A DNA stretch of 64,000 bases from contig NZ_JAERQM010000012.1 in the NCBI RefSeq assembly GCF_019029495.1, positions 1 through 64,000 of the forward strand. The letters run 5' to 3'. The notes under the pieces were generated by a model. It saw only the letters and a program-made list of their open reading frames with translations, did no database searches and had not been told where the DNA came from. This document shows positions 24,640 to 31,649 of the stretch, piece by piece. Position 1 is the first letter of the stretch, and each line of letters starts with the position of its first letter. Origin of the DNA: Falsiroseomonas oleicola. GTDB taxonomy: Bacteria > Pseudomonadota > Alphaproteobacteria > Acetobacterales > Acetobacteraceae. Position numbers and translations under genes: made by a program.

Positions 24640-25776
24640 ATGCTGGAACTGACGGAAGCGGCGCTGCTGGCCGCCCTGCGCGGCTGGGTGGAGATCGAAA
24701 GCCCGACCCAGGATGTCGCCGCGGTGAACCGCATGGCCGACCATGTGGAGGCGAAGCTGCGCGCCATCGGCGCCCGAATCGAGCGCATTCCCGGCACCGA
24801 CGGCTATGCCGATATCCTGATCGGCCGGATCGCGGGCGAGGAACCCGGCCCCGGCCTGCTGCTGCTGGGCCATATCGACACGGTGCATCCGGTCGGCACC
24901 CTGGCCACGAAGCTGCCCTTCCGGGTGGAGGGCGACCGCGCCTATGGCCCCGGCACCTATGACATGAAGGGCGGCAATGCGATGGCGCTGGCCGCGCTGG
25001 AACATATCCACGCCCAGGGCCGCCGGCCGCGCCTGCCGGTCAGTTTCATGATGATCCCGGATGAGGAGGCGGGCAGCCCCTCCTCCCGCGCCGCGATCGA
25101 GGCGGAGGCGCTGCGCCACGCGGCGGTGCTGGTGCCGGAACCTTCAGGGGAGGGCGGCCGGCTGACGGTCGGCCGGCACGGCATCGCGCGCTACCACCTG
25201 CGCACCATCGGCCGCCCCGCCCATGCCGGCGCCACCCATGCGGAGGGCCGTTCCGCCATCCGCGAAATGGCCCGGCAGGTGCTGGCGATCGAGGCGCTGA
25301 CGGATTACGCGCGCAACTTCTACGTCAATATTGGCACGATTTCGGGCGGCACGCATGAGAACATGGTGCCGGTGGAATGCCGCGCCATCTGCTACGCGCT
25401 GGTGCCCACGGCGGTGGAGGCGGCGGAGCTGCGCGACGCCCTGTTCGCGCTGCGCCCGCATGACCCGGATGTGGTGCTGGAGGTGGTGCCCGGCCTGTCC
25501 CGCCCACCCTTCGCCAAGACCCCGGCGGGCCAGGCGCTGTACGATCAGGCCAAGGCGCTGGCGGCCGATGGCCCCTTCCCGGTGCTGGGGGAACGTGTGG
25601 CCGGCGGTGGCAGCGACGGCAATTTCACCGGCGCGCTCGGCGTGCCGACGCTGGACGGTCTCGGCGTCATCGGCGGCGGCCCGCACAGTTTTGAGGAGCA
25701 CATCCTGACCGGCTGCCTGGTGCCACGCACCCGGCTGTTCGTGCGGCTGTTCGAGACGCTGGAAAGGCCGGGCTGA
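24640..25776 (+). CDS. M20 family metallopeptidase (carboxypeptidase G2-like)
   Basis: A 378-residue cytoplasmic di-zinc peptidase. Metal and catalytic residues are visible: His78 and Asp80 in GHIDTV, Asp108 in YDMKGGN, Glu142-Glu143 in PDEEAG, and a C-terminal His in GGGPHSFEE. The dimerisation (lid) domain lies between about 190 and 300. It resembles glutamate carboxypeptidase/CPG2-like enzymes. The ATG at 24640 follows GGGGAAA; the longer frame is only an extension into the riboswitch region. It is divergent from the glycine-cleavage operon. Confidence 0.9.
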   Translation: MLELTEAALLAALRGWVEIESPTQDVAAVNRMADHVEAKLRAIGARIERIPGTDGYADILIGRIAGEEPGPGLLLLGHIDTVHPVGTLATKLPFRVEGDRAYGPGTYDMKGGNAMALAALEHIHAQGRRPRLPVSFMMIPDEEAGSPSSRAAIEAEALRHAAVLVPEPSGEGGRLTVGRHGIARYHLRTIGRPAHAGATHAEGRSAIREMARQVLAIEALTDYARNFYVNIGTISGGTHENMVPVECRAICYALVPTAVEAAELRDALFALRPHDPDVVLEVVPGLSRPPFAKTPAGQALYDQAKALAADGPFPVLGERVAGGGSDGNFTGALGVPTLDGLGVIGGGPHSFEEHILTGCLVPRTRLFVRLFETLERPG

Positions 25777-25803
25777 CAGGGGGCAGGCAAGGCCGCGCGC
25801 CGT

Positions 25804-25883
25804 CGAAACACTGTTTCGGGGCGTTTCGTGCAACTGCGGCGCGAAGGCTTTGTCCTTGCAACGACCGATGGTCGGATTAGCGT
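25804..25883 (+). promoter_or_regulatory. Putative promoter with two operator-like dyads
   Basis: The 153-base gap before the peroxidase operon holds CGAAAC-ACT-GTTTCG (25804-25818) and CGACC-GAT-GGTCG (25862-25874). The second dyad lies between a TTGCAA at 25856 and a weak TAGCGT at 25878, the spacing of a -35 and -10 pair. This looks like a repressor-controlled promoter, but no regulator gene is adjacent. Confidence 0.35.
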
Positions 25884-25929
25884 GGCGACCTTCACGCCGG
25901 CCATGGTCGTAGAAGCGGGGGGCTGACCG

Positions 25930-26577
25930 ATGTCGAATGTCGCGGGCAAGGCCTATGGGATGAACGTCGTCACCCCCATGCGGCCCTGGAAGACCTGGAT
26001 CAACCGGCTGCTGTTCATGGTGGCGCGCACCCAGCCACAGCAATTGGGCGGGCTGCTGGGCCTTTCCATCATCCACTTCGCCCGCTGGGTGATGATCCGC
26101 CGCGACCAATGGCCCGATCTCGGCCAGGGCAGGCCTGTCATCGACAATGACTACATGCTGTTCGTCAGCAACTTCAACGGCACCTGGGACCAGTATATCG
26201 ACGCCTTCAGCGACGGCATTCCCAACGGCCTGGACCTGTTCTGGTATTCCAGCACGAAATACCCGGGCTCCATCCCGATCACGCCCTTCAAGAACTACAT
26301 CCGCGCCAACCAGATCGACACCGGCTACTACTACAACGCCACCCCCGGCGCGGCGCAGCGCGACATCAAGGCGGCGCTGCGGGTCTGGTCGGTGCTGGAC
26401 GACCTGCGCACCCAGCATGCGAAACTGCCCCCGGCGGAATTCGCCGAGGCCTGGCGACGCGCCTTCGTCGCCATCCAGAACGACCTGCCCTCCCCGGGTC
26501 ATGCGCCCGTGGCTAGCAACGACACCCAGAATGCCGACCTGAACCGAGAGGCGCTGATCCGCCGGCCGCGCGACTGA
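25930..26577 (+). CDS. Conserved hypothetical protein of the DyP-P450 operon
   Basis: A 215-residue protein of no family I can name. It has two conserved-looking motifs also present in the next gene: IIHFARW at 47-53 and MLFVSNFNGTWDQYIDAF at 76-93. A strand-strand-helix pattern and the later FKNYIRANQIDTGYYYNATP suggest a ferredoxin-like alpha/beta fold of the kind DyP peroxidases are built from; that fold is my inference. A basic, aromatic N-terminus (RPWKTWINRLLFM) may touch the membrane but is not a full helix. It begins the operon with the next three genes, spaced by 13 bases. Confidence 0.7.
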   Translation: MSNVAGKAYGMNVVTPMRPWKTWINRLLFMVARTQPQQLGGLLGLSIIHFARWVMIRRDQWPDLGQGRPVIDNDYMLFVSNFNGTWDQYIDAFSDGIPNGLDLFWYSSTKYPGSIPITPFKNYIRANQIDTGYYYNATPGAAQRDIKAALRVWSVLDDLRTQHAKLPPAEFAEAWRRAFVAIQNDLPSPGHAPVASNDTQNADLNREALIRRPRD

Positions 26578-26590
26578 GGGGAGACGAACC

Positions 26591-27541
26591 ATGCCCAATT
26601 TCGACGGCGGCCACTACTTCCTCACCGCCCTGGTGCCGATCCGCGGCGACCTCTGCGCCGATCCGCGCACGGATGCGACCGTCACCTCCCATCTGCATGA
26701 GCTGCGCGCGACGCTGGCGGCGCTGCCGACGGCCTTGCAGACCCCGGCGACGGAGAAGATCGGCCTCAACAGCCCCTTCGCGCGCGGCAACCGCACGCAT
26801 TTTGCCCGCTTCGCCATTCTCGATGATGTGGCCTTCAACGGGCGCGGCCAGCGTGACCCGATCGCGGTGGCGCTGGGCCTGGGCAAGCAGCCGAGCGTGG
26901 CGGATCCGGTGGACCGGCTGCCCTGTTCCTACCTGATCTTCGTGGCGGATTTCGACGCGCCGGATGGCAGCCAGGCGGCGCTGGACGACTACCTGGCGCA
27001 TCTCTGGCAGATCATGGAGCCGGAGCTGCGCAACATCTTCGGCCATTGCGACGGCCATGCGCGGCTGACCGATGCGGCGGGTTTTTCCGGGTTGATCCGC
27101 GCTTGCCAGGTCGAGACCACCATGCCCTTCAACGACTACTGGCAGGGCGCGCCGCCGCTCACGCCGCTGCCGCTGAAGCGCCTGCTGCTGCCGGCGCTGG
27201 TGGCGGCCGGGGCGCTGGTGCTGGGGCTGCTGATCGGCATCTTCGCGCAGGGCTGGCTGTGGCTGTCGCTGGCCGGGCTGGTGGCGCTGCCGGTCGCGCT
27301 GTGGTGGGCCTATTCCCGGGTGATGGCGGCCGCCGCCGTGCCCTTCCCGATGGCGCCGCGCTCCGACCTGCCATCGGTTTTGAAGGCGCTGTATCTGCAA
27401 CAGCAGGTCACCCGCTTCGCCATCGACACCCAGGGCGCGGACCCCGCGACGCTGCACGCCGCCTTCGGCGACTTCCTGGCGCGCCACAGGCCGGAGGATG
27501 CGGCCGCACCCACCCAGCGCCCCGGCGTGGTCAAGTGCTGA
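26591..27541 (+). CDS. Conserved membrane-anchored hypothetical protein of the DyP-P450 operon
   Basis: A 316-residue protein in three parts: a soluble N-terminal region with GGHYFLTALVPIRGD, then THFARF at 69-73 and YLIFVADFDAPDG at 114-126; two adjacent membrane helices at about 197-220 and 222-242; and a short soluble tail. The HFAR and FVADFD motifs match those of the preceding protein in order and spacing, so the two look homologous. The tail ends with a basic Lys-Cys. GGGAGACGAACC precedes the ATG. It probably holds a complex of this operon at the inner membrane. No known family is recognised. Confidence 0.7.
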   Translation: MPNFDGGHYFLTALVPIRGDLCADPRTDATVTSHLHELRATLAALPTALQTPATEKIGLNSPFARGNRTHFARFAILDDVAFNGRGQRDPIAVALGLGKQPSVADPVDRLPCSYLIFVADFDAPDGSQAALDDYLAHLWQIMEPELRNIFGHCDGHARLTDAAGFSGLIRACQVETTMPFNDYWQGAPPLTPLPLKRLLLPALVAAGALVLGLLIGIFAQGWLWLSLAGLVALPVALWWAYSRVMAAAAVPFPMAPRSDLPSVLKALYLQQQVTRFAIDTQGADPATLHAAFGDFLARHRPEDAAAPTQRPGVVKC

Positions 27542-27548
27542 GGAGATC

Positions 27549-29186
27549 ATGAGCATGGCCGTGCAGCTCGACCTCGCCGATATCCAGGGCAATGTCCTCA
27601 CCGCCTATGGCCGCCTCGGCTTTCCCAAGGGGCGCTTCCTGCTGCTGAACATCGCGGATGCGCGGGCCGGGCGCACCTTGCTCGACATGCTGCGGCCCTA
27701 TGTCACCACGGCGTTGCGCTGGCCCTCCTCCAAGGACAAGGAACCACCGCCCGGCACGGTGTTCCAGCGCCGGCCGCAGGTGGCGGTGAATGTCGCCTTC
27801 ACCTTCTGGGGTCTGCTGGCGCTCGGCGTGCCGATCCGCACGCTGCGCGGCATGCCCGATGAATTCATCGACGGCATGCCCGCCCGCGCCGACATCCTTT
27901 GCGACAATTTCCCGAAACACATCGAGGAGGCCTGGGACCCGGTCTGGCTCTGGCGCGACGATCCCAGGCGGCGCGTGCATGTGCTGCTGACGCTGAACGC
28001 GCAGATGAACGATGACGGCACGCCGGTGGAGCGCCTCGATGAGGTAACGCGGGAGATTCTCGGCTTCATTCATGCGATGCAGGGGAAGGTCACGCTGCTG
28101 TCGGGCCATCGCGGCGCGGATGAGCGCTGGCAGGATCTGTCGGCGCTGCTGGGCAGCCTGCCGGATGGCACGAAGACCCCGCTGCCCACCGAGCATTTTG
28201 GCTTCGTTGACGCCATTGGTGACCCGGTCTTCGAGGGCCAGCATGAACCGGACAAGATGGCCGCGCGGGTGGTCGGCCAGGGCAAGCTGCTGCCGGACCA
28301 GAGCTGGGCGCCGCTCGCCGCGGGCGAATTCCTGCTCGGCCATCCGGATGAATCGCAGGAGATCGCCGGCGGCCCCATGCCACTGGATTTCGCCCGCAAC
28401 GGCACCTTCATCGCCTATCGCAAGCTGCACCAGAACGTCGCCGCGTTCCGCGATGCCATGGACCGCATGGCGGTGACATTCGCCAAGGTGATGCAGGTGG
28501 GGCAGGAGGAGGCCTGCGAGACGCTGAAGGCCAAGATCGCCGGCCGCTGGTCGGATGGCGTGCCGCTGATCTCCGCGCCGACCTATCCCGAATGGCGCGC
28601 CGTGCAGGCGCGGCGCGTCGCGGCGGCGAAGGCGGGGGACAGGGCGACGCTGGCGGCGCTCGACCGTGCGCTGGTGGACTTCACCTTCCGCGACGATCCG
28701 CTGGGCGCCAAATGCCCCTTCGGATCGCATCTGCGGCGTTCCAATACGCGCGACATGATGGACCCGCTGCTGACATCCCCGGATCCGAAGAAATGGGGTG
28801 GCTCCGTGCTGAACAATCGCCGCCGGTTGTTGCGCCGCGGACTGCCCTATGGCGAGGCCGCGCCCGGCGCGACGGTGGATGACCAGGAGCATGGCATCGT
28901 CATGCTCGCCACCTGCGCCAGCCTGTTCCGGCAGTTCGAATTCGTGCAGCAGCAATGGATGCAGTACGGGCTGGACTTCAACACCGGCAACGACACCTGC
29001 CCGATCGTCGGCAATCACGGCGAGGATGCGAAATTCGTCATCGCCGCCGACCCCGCCTCCGGCAAGCCGCCCTTCATCTGCGACCGTCTGCCGCAATTCG
29101 TGGAGACGCGCGGTGGCGAGTATTTCTTCGTCCCCAGCATGACGGCGTTGCGCATGATCGCCGCCGGAATCGTGGACCCGACATGA
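27549..29186 (+). CDS. DyP-type heme peroxidase
   Basis: A 545-residue dye-decolorising-type peroxidase. Family marks are DIQGNVL at 11-17, QVAVNVAFTFWGLLALGV, GFVDAIGDP at 218-226 with the catalytic Asp221, CPFGSHLRR at 389-397 with proximal heme ligand His393, RRGLPYGE, FRQFEFVQQQW and TRGGEYFFVPSM. The usual GFxDG has Ala at its last place. No signal peptide is present, so it is cytoplasmic or held through its membrane-anchored neighbour. AGGAG lies just before ATG 27549, and its stop overlaps the P450 start (ATGA). It likely uses peroxide to oxidise a substrate shared with the P450. Confidence 0.9.
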   Translation: MSMAVQLDLADIQGNVLTAYGRLGFPKGRFLLLNIADARAGRTLLDMLRPYVTTALRWPSSKDKEPPPGTVFQRRPQVAVNVAFTFWGLLALGVPIRTLRGMPDEFIDGMPARADILCDNFPKHIEEAWDPVWLWRDDPRRRVHVLLTLNAQMNDDGTPVERLDEVTREILGFIHAMQGKVTLLSGHRGADERWQDLSALLGSLPDGTKTPLPTEHFGFVDAIGDPVFEGQHEPDKMAARVVGQGKLLPDQSWAPLAAGEFLLGHPDESQEIAGGPMPLDFARNGTFIAYRKLHQNVAAFRDAMDRMAVTFAKVMQVGQEEACETLKAKIAGRWSDGVPLISAPTYPEWRAVQARRVAAAKAGDRATLAALDRALVDFTFRDDPLGAKCPFGSHLRRSNTRDMMDPLLTSPDPKKWGGSVLNNRRRLLRRGLPYGEAAPGATVDDQEHGIVMLATCASLFRQFEFVQQQWMQYGLDFNTGNDTCPIVGNHGEDAKFVIAADPASGKPPFICDRLPQFVETRGGEYFFVPSMTALRMIAAGIVDPT

Positions 29187-30550
29187 GCGGGCTCCTGGGG
29201 AATGCGGCGCGCGCGACTGCGGTGCGCCTCGGCATGGCGGGCGCGGCGCTGGGTGCTGCCGGGAAGCTCGCGCTGCGCGGCGCCAGGGCCTATTCCGGTG
29301 GCGCTGACGGAAGAAAGCAGCGCATCGCCGCGCTGCTCGGCGCCACGGCGAATCAGCGGCTGGTCTTCGCGCTGCTGCGTGCGGCGAAGCCGAACCTTGC
29401 GCTGAGCCGCAAGCTGATCGCGGCCTATGACAACACCGGCACCGTCATCGTCACCCGCCATGCCGATGTGACGGAGGTGCTGGAACGCGAGACGGATTTC
29501 GCCGTCGTCTACGAACCCAAGATGCGCGCCATCACCGCCGGCGAGAACTTCTTCCTCGGCATGCAGGACAGCCCGGCCTATACGCGGGACGTGTCCAACA
29601 TGCGCCTCGCCGTGCGGCGCAGCGACCTGCCGGACATCGTGATTCCCTTTGTGGCATCGCAGGCGGAGGCGATCGTGGCCGGCAGCGGCGGCGCGCTGGA
29701 TGTGCCGCAGGCGCTGACCCTGCCGGTGCTGACCGGCTTGCTCGGCCATTACTTCGGCACGCCCGGCCCCTCCGGCCCCGTCATGGCCGATTGGACCACG
29801 CGGATGTTCTGGTACCTCTTCGTCGACCTGGCGGGAGAGGAGGCGGTGACGCAGGCGGCGATGCGGGCCGCCGCCGAATGCCGCGGCTGGCTGGATGTCG
29901 CCATCGCCGCCCGCAAATCCGCCCCGGCCGGCACGGACCAGGTGCTGGACCGCTGCCTCACCTTGCAGGCGGCGGGCGTGCCGGGGATGGACGACCTCGG
30001 CATCCGCAACAACCTGATCGGCTTGTTGATCGGCCTGGTGCCCACCCTGTCCAAGGCCAGCGTCAAGGCGCTGGACGTGCTGCTGGACCGGCCCGAAGCG
30101 CTGGAGGCCGCCCAGGCCGCCGCCCGCGCCGATGACGATGCCGCGCTCGCCGCCATAGTCTGGGAGGCGCTGCGCTTCGACCCCGTGAACCCCTTCATCT
30201 ATCGCCGCGCGGTGCGGGAGACGGTGATCGCGCGCGGCACGCTGCGGGCGCGGCGCGTGCCGGAAGGGGCGATGGTGCTGGCGGCCAACCTCTCCGCCAT
30301 GTTCGACCCCATCGCGCTGCAAAAGCCCGAGGAATTCCGGGCGGGGCGGGAGGCGGGCGGCTACATCCTCTGGGGCTATGGCATGCACACCTGCTTCGGC
30401 GCGCATATCAACCAGGCGGTGATTCCGCAGATGCTGAAGCCGCTGCTGCGCCGCCAGGGGCTGCGCCGTGCGCCCGGGGCGGCCGGGCAGGTGGATGGCG
30501 CGGGCACCCCCTTCCCGGTGCACTTTCGGCTGGAATTCGACAGTCTGTAA
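29183..30550 (+). CDS. Cytochrome P450, atypical I-helix
   Basis: A 455-residue P450 with the heme-thiolate loop WGYGMHTCFG (ligand Cys404) and the ExxR pair Glu328-Arg331. The I-helix reads GLVPT at 284-288: Thr288 is kept but the acid of the usual acid-alcohol pair is Pro287. P450s that use peroxide directly (CYP152) also have Pro near this place, so a peroxygenase or isomerase-like role is possible; that is inference. No ferredoxin or reductase is adjacent, which fits. A hydrophobic N-terminus precedes the globular part. Its start is coupled to the DyP stop. It ends the four-gene operon. Confidence 0.9.
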   Translation: MSGLLGNAARATAVRLGMAGAALGAAGKLALRGARAYSGGADGRKQRIAALLGATANQRLVFALLRAAKPNLALSRKLIAAYDNTGTVIVTRHADVTEVLERETDFAVVYEPKMRAITAGENFFLGMQDSPAYTRDVSNMRLAVRRSDLPDIVIPFVASQAEAIVAGSGGALDVPQALTLPVLTGLLGHYFGTPGPSGPVMADWTTRMFWYLFVDLAGEEAVTQAAMRAAAECRGWLDVAIAARKSAPAGTDQVLDRCLTLQAAGVPGMDDLGIRNNLIGLLIGLVPTLSKASVKALDVLLDRPEALEAAQAAARADDDAALAAIVWEALRFDPVNPFIYRRAVRETVIARGTLRARRVPEGAMVLAANLSAMFDPIALQKPEEFRAGREAGGYILWGYGMHTCFGAHINQAVIPQMLKPLLRRQGLRRAPGAAGQVDGAGTPFPVHFRLEFDSL

Positions 30551-30605
30551 CCGCTTGCGGGCGCCGCCGCGCAATGGTCTGCTGACCAAAAGCGGAGGAC
30601 ACGAC

Positions 30606-31160
30606 ATGGCGCGCCTGCCCTATCGCGACGCGGACGAGCTGGCGGCGGAGGACAAGCCGCTTCTGGTGCGGCCGGTCAATCTGTACCGCGCCATGGTGAA
30701 CAATCCGGGGATCACCCGCGCCTTCCTCGGCCTGGCCAACCAGATCCGCCACCAGGGCGTGCTGGATGGGCGGCTGCGCGAACTGGCGATCCTCCAGGTC
30801 GGCTGGGTCACGCGCTCCCCCTATGAATGGTCGCATCATGTGGCTATCGGGCGCGGTTTTGGCGTGACGGATGCCGATCTGCACGCCATCGCGGCGGAGA
30901 CGCGGGGCGAGGCCAGCGGGTTGGAACCCATCGCCCGTGCCGTGCTGCGCGCGGCGCGGGAGATGGCGGAAGGCGCGGATGCGCTGCGCGACGTCACCTT
31001 CACGGAGTTGCGCGCCTATCTCGACGAGCCGGCGCTGACGGAGCTGCTGGTGGTGGTTGCCTTCTACTGCGGCGTGGTGCGATTCCTGGGCGCGGCGGGC
31101 ATCGAGGTGGAGCCGGATTACCAGCCGCATCTCAATGCCTTTCCGCTACCTTCAGACTGA
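30606..31160 (+). CDS. Carboxymuconolactone decarboxylase-family protein
   Basis: A 184-residue protein of the CMD/AhpD fold. The helical core RLRELAILQVGWVTRSPYEWSHHVAIGRGFGVTD carries the Glu-x-x-His-His pattern in place of the AhpD CxxC pair, so a peroxidase reduction role is unlikely. Members of this branch act in aromatic or lactone catabolism, often without a known reaction. GGAGG precedes the ATG. It follows the P450 gene by 55 bases and could be its fifth operon member. Its stop codon abuts that of the convergent GAF gene. Confidence 0.87.
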   Translation: MARLPYRDADELAAEDKPLLVRPVNLYRAMVNNPGITRAFLGLANQIRHQGVLDGRLRELAILQVGWVTRSPYEWSHHVAIGRGFGVTDADLHAIAAETRGEASGLEPIARAVLRAAREMAEGADALRDVTFTELRAYLDEPALTELLVVVAFYCGVVRFLGAAGIEVEPDYQPHLNAFPLPSD

Positions 31161-31649
31161 TCAGCCCGCCAGCCAGTCCGGAGTGACGACAAGCCCCAAC
31201 AGTTCCGCCAGCGCCTGCCATTCCGGCTGGACGTTTTCCGAGCCGAACAGAAAGTTCACCGTGCCGAGGCAGGCGCCCGCATGCAGGATCGGCACGTTGA
31301 CGATGCTGCGCAGGCCGAGGCCCAGGATCAGCTTGTGGTCGTCGAAGAAAGCCGTGATGGCGGCAGCACCTTCGCCAACAAAAACCTTCCGCTCCTCCAG
31401 CACATGCCGTCCCCAGGCGGTGTCCCGCTTCGGCTTGGCGCCGCCGACCGGATAGGCGGCGGCGTCGGTGCTGAAGATGCGGCGCACCGTCATGGTCGCC
31501 GCGTCGAAGCGCATGGCGGTGCACAGCCCATGGCCCATCGCCTGCCGCGCCACCGCCTCCGCCGCCCCCAGCAGGGCCAGCGGCCGCGCATCGCGCGCGG
31601 CCGCCGTCAACAAGGCCCTTTGTGGCGCGGTCAGCACCGCATCAGGCAT
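31161..31649 (-). CDS. GAF domain protein
   Basis: A 162-residue single GAF domain (about residues 20-150) with the sequence pattern LCTAMRFDAATMTVRRIFSTD, DTAWGRHVLEERKVFVGEG and SIVNVPILHAGACLGTVNFL. Such proteins are free small-molecule sensors or detached signalling modules. No output domain is present. Its start overlaps the end of the Bug protein gene by eight bases, so the two are probably co-transcribed and it may respond to the same ligand. Its stop codon abuts the convergent decarboxylase gene in the palindrome TGATCA. Confidence 0.82.
   Translation of the reverse strand: MPDAVLTAPQRALLTAAARDARPLALLGAAEAVARQAMGHGLCTAMRFDAATMTVRRIFSTDAAAYPVGGAKPKRDTAWGRHVLEERKVFVGEGAAAITAFFDDHKLILGLGLRSIVNVPILHAGACLGTVNFLFGSENVQPEWQALAELLGLVVTPDWLAG

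Follow-up and report, generated by a model that had tools for sequence, protein, structure and literature searches.

In the accessible part of PMC13049297, fungal fusions of a dioxygenase with a cytochrome P450 (DOX-CYP) are linoleate diol, allene oxide and epoxy alcohol synthases; their P450s show altered I-helix (SRS4) motifs and, so far as is known, are self-sufficient. The CYP5619 P450-peroxidase/dioxygenase fusions of oomycetes carry a degenerate CXG motif and are called unique to oomycetes in the available sections of PMC5919972. PA2077 and PA2078 of Pseudomonas aeruginosa are RoxA-related, and the portion of PMC4496055 that was available describes them as di-heme fatty acid oxygenases, a dioxygenase and a diol synthase. 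Here we describe a bacterial gene block that combines a DyP-type heme peroxidase (P3) and an atypical cytochrome P450 (P4) with two companion proteins, P1 and P2. It lies in a stretch of 64,000 nucleotides (the window) of Falsiroseomonas oleicola contig NZ_JAERQM010000012.1. DyP and P450 are known families, and the families of P1 and P2 appear to be undescribed. To our knowledge, what DyP peroxidases do in nature is for the most part unsettled.

A joint function of the four parts seems near certain because all four also occur fused, and the fusions and gene order naturally suggest that the products would form a physical complex. In our judgement there is an even chance that the four genes encode a two-heme complex tethered to the inner membrane, in which the P450 would take peroxide or a hydroperoxide instead of reductase-fed O2, perhaps acting on lipids.

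Gene layout

The genes for P1, P2, DyP and P450 follow one another with spacings of 13, 7 and -4 bases between their open reading frames (ORFs). The features of the region are as follows (aa, amino acids).

25930..26577, forward strand: P1, companion protein of 215 aa (ORF; no Pfam or NCBIfam match)
26591..27541, forward strand: P2, P1-related companion protein of 316 aa (ORF; barrel-like N-terminal domain, predicted two-helix membrane hairpin, C-terminal helices)
27173..27334, forward strand: codons of the predicted P2 membrane hairpin, residues 195-248 (AF2 helices, hydropathy)
27549..29186, forward strand: P3, DyP-type heme peroxidase of 545 aa (Pfam DyP_N and Dyp_perox_C; nearest solved chains 8re3 and 7anv)
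28209..28211, forward strand: DyP Asp221 (22/22 in the family alignment)
28728..28730, forward strand: DyP His394 (22/22 in the family alignment)
28833..28838, forward strand: DyP Arg429-Arg430 (22/22 in the family alignment)
29183..30550, forward strand: P4, atypical cytochrome P450 of 455 aa (Pfam p450; ExxR and Cys404 in 42/42)
30032..30046, forward strand: P450 I-helix segment GLVPT, with Pro287 where other P450s carry Asp/Glu (alignment)
30392..30394, forward strand: P450 heme-thiolate Cys404 (alignment)
30606..31160, forward strand: carboxymuconolactone decarboxylase/AhpD-type protein, a possible lineage-specific fifth gene (Pfam)

Conservation of the gene order

Close relatives of P1 numbered 316 in a scan that took one genome from each species; the best 80 were examined. 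Their loci span Alpha-, Beta- and Gammaproteobacteria as well as metagenome-assembled genomes (MAGs) labelled Verrucomicrobia and cyanobacterium. P1 and P2 occur together in all 80, twice as a single P1-P2 ORF (L082, L115). DyP comes next in each of the 76 loci with enough contig, the remaining four contigs ending in or just after P2, and a P450 follows DyP in 53 of the 76; it is truncated or broken in four loci (L070, L072, L093, L128). With gene starts picked by script, the median gaps along the block are 9.5 (78 pairs), 9 (74) and 13 bases (53), with many 4-base overlaps.

The earlier note on this DNA had read the four genes as one unit from their spacing, and the ORF coordinates agree with this, as do the recurring order, strand and tight spacing. 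It had also proposed to look for a conserved block across taxa, and the gene order indeed recurs in the 80 loci and in several phyla. As a fixed part of the unit the P450 fared less well: it follows DyP in the 53 loci just mentioned, was found in none of the other 23, and gives way to a catalase-like substitute in distant relatives.

The block is sparsely distributed: a protein search recovered P1 from 8 of 59 near relatives and, across the phylum, from 19 of 299 genomes. The closest named relatives of P1 are from Falsiroseomonas (identity up to 93%). The surroundings vary between loci, the commonest family matching only 4 of 134 flanking proteins when glutathione S-transferase (GST) genes are excluded. 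Distance matrices of the four proteins correlate with Spearman coefficients of 0.60-0.79 over 44 loci, a comparison that had no unrelated control gene and from which we conclude nothing. In an Ascidiaceihabitans MAG (L128, 9079-13833) the whole set is split over several frames, possibly through decay or a sequencing fault. Another locus (L093, 10691-13391) has an extra short DyP-like ORF between DyP and P450, and in the MAG labelled cyanobacterium (L109, 12669-14687) a caspase-domain protein is encoded downstream of P1-P2-DyP.

Fusions and exchange of the third partner

A broad profile applied to 398 Pseudomonadota genomes, including that of the window, detected a P1-like domain in 27. All 27 have a DyP at the locus; in 26 it adjoins P1, lies past P2 or is fused, and in G429 it is about 1 kb away. 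Single proteins combining P450, P1-like domain and DyP occur in six of the 27. The fusion proteins, of 1408-1633 aa, comprise a P450, a P2-like barrel, a hydrophobic stretch, a P1-like domain and DyP. Their P2-like part scores 94.7 in hhalign (E 6e-8; eight sequences, five from full fusions), and the hydrophobic segments sit between this part and the P1-like domain. Plasmid-borne fusions were read from Novosphingobium aromaticivorans pNL2 (SARO_RS19865), Sulfitobacter pSpoCB-1 and Pararhizobium qamdonense p2, and one fused protein has matches over at least 80% of its length in nine plasmid records.

SARO_RS19865, a P450-DyP protein of 1443 aa (L183, 7848-12179, strain DSM 12444), is annotated merely as a Dyp-type peroxidase domain-containing protein. 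A Rhizobium sp. CC1099 plasmid (L185, 5857-8814) encodes a 985-aa fusion of P1-like domain and DyP with hydrophobic stretches and without a P450.

The third partner in the 27 genomes is a P450 in 16, a catalase-like protein in seven and a RoxA-like protein in one (G167); three have none (G155, G429, G109). Two of the P450 genes lie about 1 kb after DyP (G304, G316), and the P450 calls in G345 and G391 rest on weaker matches (93 and 32 bits). None of these genomes combines P450 and catalase-like genes within the stretches read, and in G439 DyP is fused to a catalase-like part instead of a P450. On a Granulicella plasmid (Acidobacteriota), P1 and DyP are accompanied by a P2/P1-like protein and no P450.

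The catalase-like partners measure 332-446 aa. All nine scanned have the R...Y motif and six have the distal His; in L176, L178 and L168 it is replaced by Asn, and these three are therefore unlikely to be plain catalases. Two of the nine exceed the Pfam Catalase cut-off, and that of L134 matches no solved structure at E<=1e-6. Queries with catalase-like proteins matched nothing in the 80 close loci or the window. A catalase-like protein in the place of the P450 suggests that the second step would be a hydroperoxide conversion.

An I-helix without the acid

P4 matches Pfam p450 (6.2e-6), with 5vws as best solved match and others such as CYP113A1. Its ExxR motif, Cys404 and Gly406 are each kept in 42 of 42 relatives. 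The earlier note had called this P450 atypical, and the I-helix bears this out: Pro287 takes the place of the acid in 41 of the 42, Asp being found only in the divergent L045, whose P450 likewise adjoins P1 and DyP. The acid-alcohol pair of O2-activating P450 monooxygenases is thus lacking in P4. The segment reads GLVPT in the window and GAIPT or GAVPT in most relatives, with Thr288 kept in 41 of 42. The Pro287 site was set by L045 and by an alignment to 5it1 that is ungapped in that segment; some profile alignments move the segment by one residue, and the 41 Pro-bearing proteins have no Asp or Glu at 286-288 (Glu at 285 in two). Seventeen further or distant P450s, four of them from loci among the 42, have Pro in 15 cases, the exceptions being L045 (Asp) and L170 (Ala), and the fused P450s read PT at this site in 9/9 aligned. 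As controls, both remaining P450s of the genome keep the acid (AGHETT and AGHETS), as does the P450 of a Methylorubrum plasmid (AGHETT), which is accompanied by a ferredoxin and an FAD-dependent oxidoreductase beside a catalase-P1-DyP set.

Genes for redox partners were sought around the block. Relatives of that plasmid's ferredoxin (one query) were found neither in the 80 loci nor in the window, relatives of FAD reductase (one query) were not found in the window, and of the 153 families matched by the 134 flanking proteins, the 25 commonest include no redox-partner family. With the queries used, the 80 loci and the window thus agree with the earlier statement that no ferredoxin or P450 reductase lies beside the genes. 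The missing I-helix acid and the lack of a nearby redox-partner gene, together with the catalase-like stand-in, argue for the use of a preformed O-O bond, and from the first two of these we infer that peroxide would be the oxidant. A preformed O-O bond is also what the fungal dioxygenase-P450 fusions use (PMC13049297, accessible part).

The DyP peroxidase

P3 exceeds the Pfam cut-offs for DyP_N (5.7e-8; 33.5 bits, cut-off 27.5) and Dyp_perox_C (1.8e-4; 21.7 bits, cut-off 20) and falls below that of the NCBIfam superfamily (78 vs 100.5 bits). The older DyP model PF04261 has no match in the genome and PF21105 has one. P3 aligns to D-type DyPs over almost its full length (residues 7-536), and the nearest solved chains are 8re3 and the ancestral D-type DyP 7anv. 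Only DyP models and DyP chains are matched, and no dioxygenase domain of the animal/COX peroxidase family. The heme-pocket residues Asp, His and Arg are present in 22 of 22 relatives; we take Asp221 to be the distal Asp and His394 the proximal heme ligand, and one of Arg429 and Arg430 is probably the distal Arg.

The companion proteins

The earlier note had placed both companions outside known families, considered them mutually related and described a two-helix anchor in P2, and all three points held up, the last as a prediction. Neither P1 nor P2 has a Pfam or NCBIfam match at E<=10, and a PHROGs search gave no match below E 0.4. Against solved structures the P1 profile has zero matches and the P2 profile matches only at E 0.4 and above. 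P1 carries the conserved motifs IHFARW and SNFNGTWDQY, which hold the invariant positions of a 69-row alignment. The kinship of the two emerges from hhalign, in which a broad P1 profile (18 sequences) matches the P2 profile (68) with a probability of 97.2 (E 3.4e-11), and from the P2 homologue of another genome (L036), which matches both P1 (8.8e-5) and P2 (2.8e-16).

The AF2 model of P2 (mean pLDDT 92.5, pTM 0.82) has an alpha+beta domain, helices at 195-216 and 220-248 and then a helical tail. Hydropathy places the hydrophobic segments within residues 193-241, and the two helices are predicted to make a membrane hairpin. P1 of the window is without a hydrophobic segment; at the same threshold, 23 of 80 P1 relatives have one.

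For residues 6-182 of P2, the alignments to antibiotic-monooxygenase-like chains span 96-102 residues and reach Z 6.3 at best, which may reflect no more than a common arrangement; rows with higher scores (Z 6.8-7.6) belong to the hairpin and not to the barrel. The N-terminal part of P1 gives similar matches to antibiotic-monooxygenase-like dimeric alpha+beta barrels (Z <=5.3), from a model of low confidence (pLDDT 69.7, pTM 0.44). P1 and P2 may well be of the dimeric alpha+beta barrel type; DyP itself carries one domain that Pfam names dimeric alpha+beta barrel. The presence of IsdG and MhuD among the weak P1 matches prompted us to consider an EfeB-like role in the release of heme iron; with P450, GST and patatin at odds with such a role, we dropped this reading.

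Neighbouring genes

Falsiroseomonas is a member of Acetobacteraceae, and the host genome measures 5.6 Mb. Upstream of P1, an M20 peptidase gene on the forward strand ends at 25776. The longest reading of the DyP ORF begins at 27498; the start used, 27549, has GAGGAGATC directly upstream. Purine-rich stretches resembling ribosome-binding sites precede P1, P2, DyP and the gene after the P450, and a promoter scan of 25600-31300 found none (0.6 expected by chance). The AhpD-type gene starts 55 bases downstream of the P450 gene. Of the 80 loci, only three, each from Falsiroseomonas, have such a gene; it immediately follows the block in two and lies 3.1 kb off in the third, and on this count we did not adopt it as a core part.

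Of the 53 loci with a P450, 18 have a GST-like gene after it, and the 27 loci without a P450 have none; L070 has a short GST-like piece upstream. On the Sphingomonas sp. AAP5 plasmid p213 (L134, 3618-8307), genes for a catalase-like protein, a P1-like protein, DyP, an acyl-CoA thioesterase and a patatin-like phospholipase stand in a row. Esterase-like and GMC oxidoreductase genes flank the catalase-like set of L178. In G167 (L175, 8384-12094), P1-DyP is followed on the same strand by a 157-aa protein with a hydrophobic N-terminus and the RoxA-like di-heme protein, which was not found in the window. Among the 25 commonest flanking families, only diacylglycerol kinase (2 of 134) is plainly lipid-related.

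Proposed function and alternatives

In the peroxide-driven, membrane-tethered complex that we favour, the two-helix hairpin of P2 would anchor the assembly in the inner membrane. P1 and P2 would be non-enzymatic or substrate-handling domains that hold or dock DyP and P450 side by side. DyP would perform peroxide or peroxide-forming chemistry. The P450 would draw its oxidant from H2O2 or an organic hydroperoxide rather than from O2 and the electrons of a ferredoxin or reductase, and would carry out the hydroperoxide conversion on a hydrophobic substrate, perhaps a lipid. A hydrophobic substrate seems likeliest, and partner exchange and a few neighbouring genes hint at a hydroperoxide and a lipid in this role.

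A more specific version, which we offer only tentatively and regard as doubtful, has DyP and the new barrel-type companions generating or selecting hydroperoxides for an exchangeable second heme enzyme, be it the acid-less P450, a catalase-like protein or a RoxA-like oxygenase. The products would be lipid-derived signals or modified membrane lipids, and the machine would be a bacterial counterpart, by analogy, of the eukaryotic dioxygenase-P450 synthases, built from unrelated parts.

Several observations weigh against a peroxide-fed complex with a lipid substrate. No P450 was found after DyP in 23 of 76 loci (two of these have <=600 bases left, which gives 53 of 74 with a P450), and the P450 is therefore not indispensable. 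A FAD reductase relative lies 5.1 kb after the block of L071, which has no P450, as the sole match in the 80 loci; redox partners may be encoded elsewhere, and with the conserved Thr288 still in place the P450 may yet run on reductase-fed chemistry. Next to P1-DyP, the Methylorubrum plasmid carries a P450 as well as a catalase-like gene. As for the companions, a narrow P1 profile (69 close sequences, Neff 2.0) matches P2 with a probability of only 3.5 (E 0.012); that profile has little diversity, and the P1-P2 score varies with the breadth of the P1 alignment. Foldseek finds nothing at E<=0.001 for either protein, the barrel fold is weakly backed, at Z about 4-6 only, and a descent of P1 and P2 from DyP gains no support from profile comparison, which shows no similarity of either to DyP.

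The set would be an oxylipin-type synthase if, at the membrane, DyP with P1/P2 made or shaped hydroperoxides of fatty acids for the P450 or catalase-like protein to rearrange. Its logic and fusion habit match those of DOX-CYP as far as the accessible part of PMC13049297 goes. The P450 lacks the I-helix acid, and the exchange of P450 for catalase-like protein parallels allene oxide synthases, which are P450s in plants and catalase-related proteins in corals (for the coral enzyme, PMC5617202, available in part). Neighbours of some sets include patatin, thioesterase, GST and RoxA-like genes, but patatin and thioesterase queries match nothing in the 80 P1-P2-DyP loci, and among the commonest flanking families the lipid link is plain for diacylglycerol kinase alone. 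We know of no DyP with dioxygenase activity on fatty acids, and we regard such a synthase as a possible but minority explanation. A detoxifying set, which would reduce or degrade membrane lipid or alkyl hydroperoxides with AhpD-type and GST genes sharing the task, seems unlikely. DyP, catalase-like, AhpD-type and GST genes are all compatible with peroxide defence, and a patatin could free damaged fatty acids, yet the P450 is no obvious defence enzyme, P1 occurs in just 27 of the 398 sampled genomes and the AhpD-type gene was found in just 3 of the 80 loci, all from Falsiroseomonas.

The P450 could instead be an ordinary monooxygenase with remote redox partners, DyP clearing leaked H2O2 and P1/P2 acting as scaffold or on the lipid side. 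Distant redox partners are frequent in bacteria, and the retention of Thr288, ExxR and Cys would suit such an enzyme; we nevertheless think it distinctly improbable in view of the Pro that replaces the acid, the catalase-like substitute in relatives, and a DyP that is steadier than the P450 (76/76 vs 53/76). That the four genes are neighbours without a joint function, held together by chance or shared regulation, is barely credible given an order and spacing kept in 80 loci and several phyla despite differing flanks, and given the fusions of the parts.

With a partner set that is conserved and spelled out by the fusions, and with N. aromaticivorans as a model organism that carries a fusion, the question of what DyPs do becomes testable. 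P1 and P2, two families without a Pfam or NCBIfam model, acquire a context, and a P450 group possibly run by peroxide without redox partners would, if true, be useful for biocatalysis.

Comparison with known systems

We found no description of the P1-P2-DyP-P450 set in the open-access PMC literature, among the matches listed, and the words 'fusion', 'fused' and 'peroxidase' do not appear in the main text of PMC8197338 as available. P3 aligns nearly end to end with the D-type DyPs 7anv and 6fsk; unlike these proteins of 484-488 aa, it has 545 aa, stays below the NCBIfam cut-off and comes with companions. CYP152 peroxygenases use H2O2 without an acid-alcohol pair and carry Arg-Pro at that site, where P4 has Pro-Thr.

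The four-gene system shares with the fungal DOX-CYP enzymes the joining of a heme peroxidase-type enzyme to a P450 with an altered I-helix (PMC13049297, accessible part). The fungal partner is a cyclooxygenase-like dioxygenase, whereas here a DyP is combined with two unnamed companion domains and a predicted hairpin; with a DyP as its peroxidase, the system falls outside DOX-CYP. Oomycete CYP5619 proteins likewise fuse a P450 to a heme peroxidase/dioxygenase (PMC5919972, sections available), but they are eukaryotic and degenerate in CXG, in contrast to the bacterial P450, in which Cys404 and Gly406 are intact in 42/42. The RoxA-like protein within one P1-DyP unit recalls PA2077/PA2078 (PMC4496055, in part), with the difference that this partner was seen in a single genome and not in the window. 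Finally, the catalase-like proteins that replace the P450 in relatives recall the coral catalase-related allene oxide synthase/hydroperoxide lyase (PMC5617202, available part); here the partner is a DyP instead of a lipoxygenase, and the likeness to catalase is weak.

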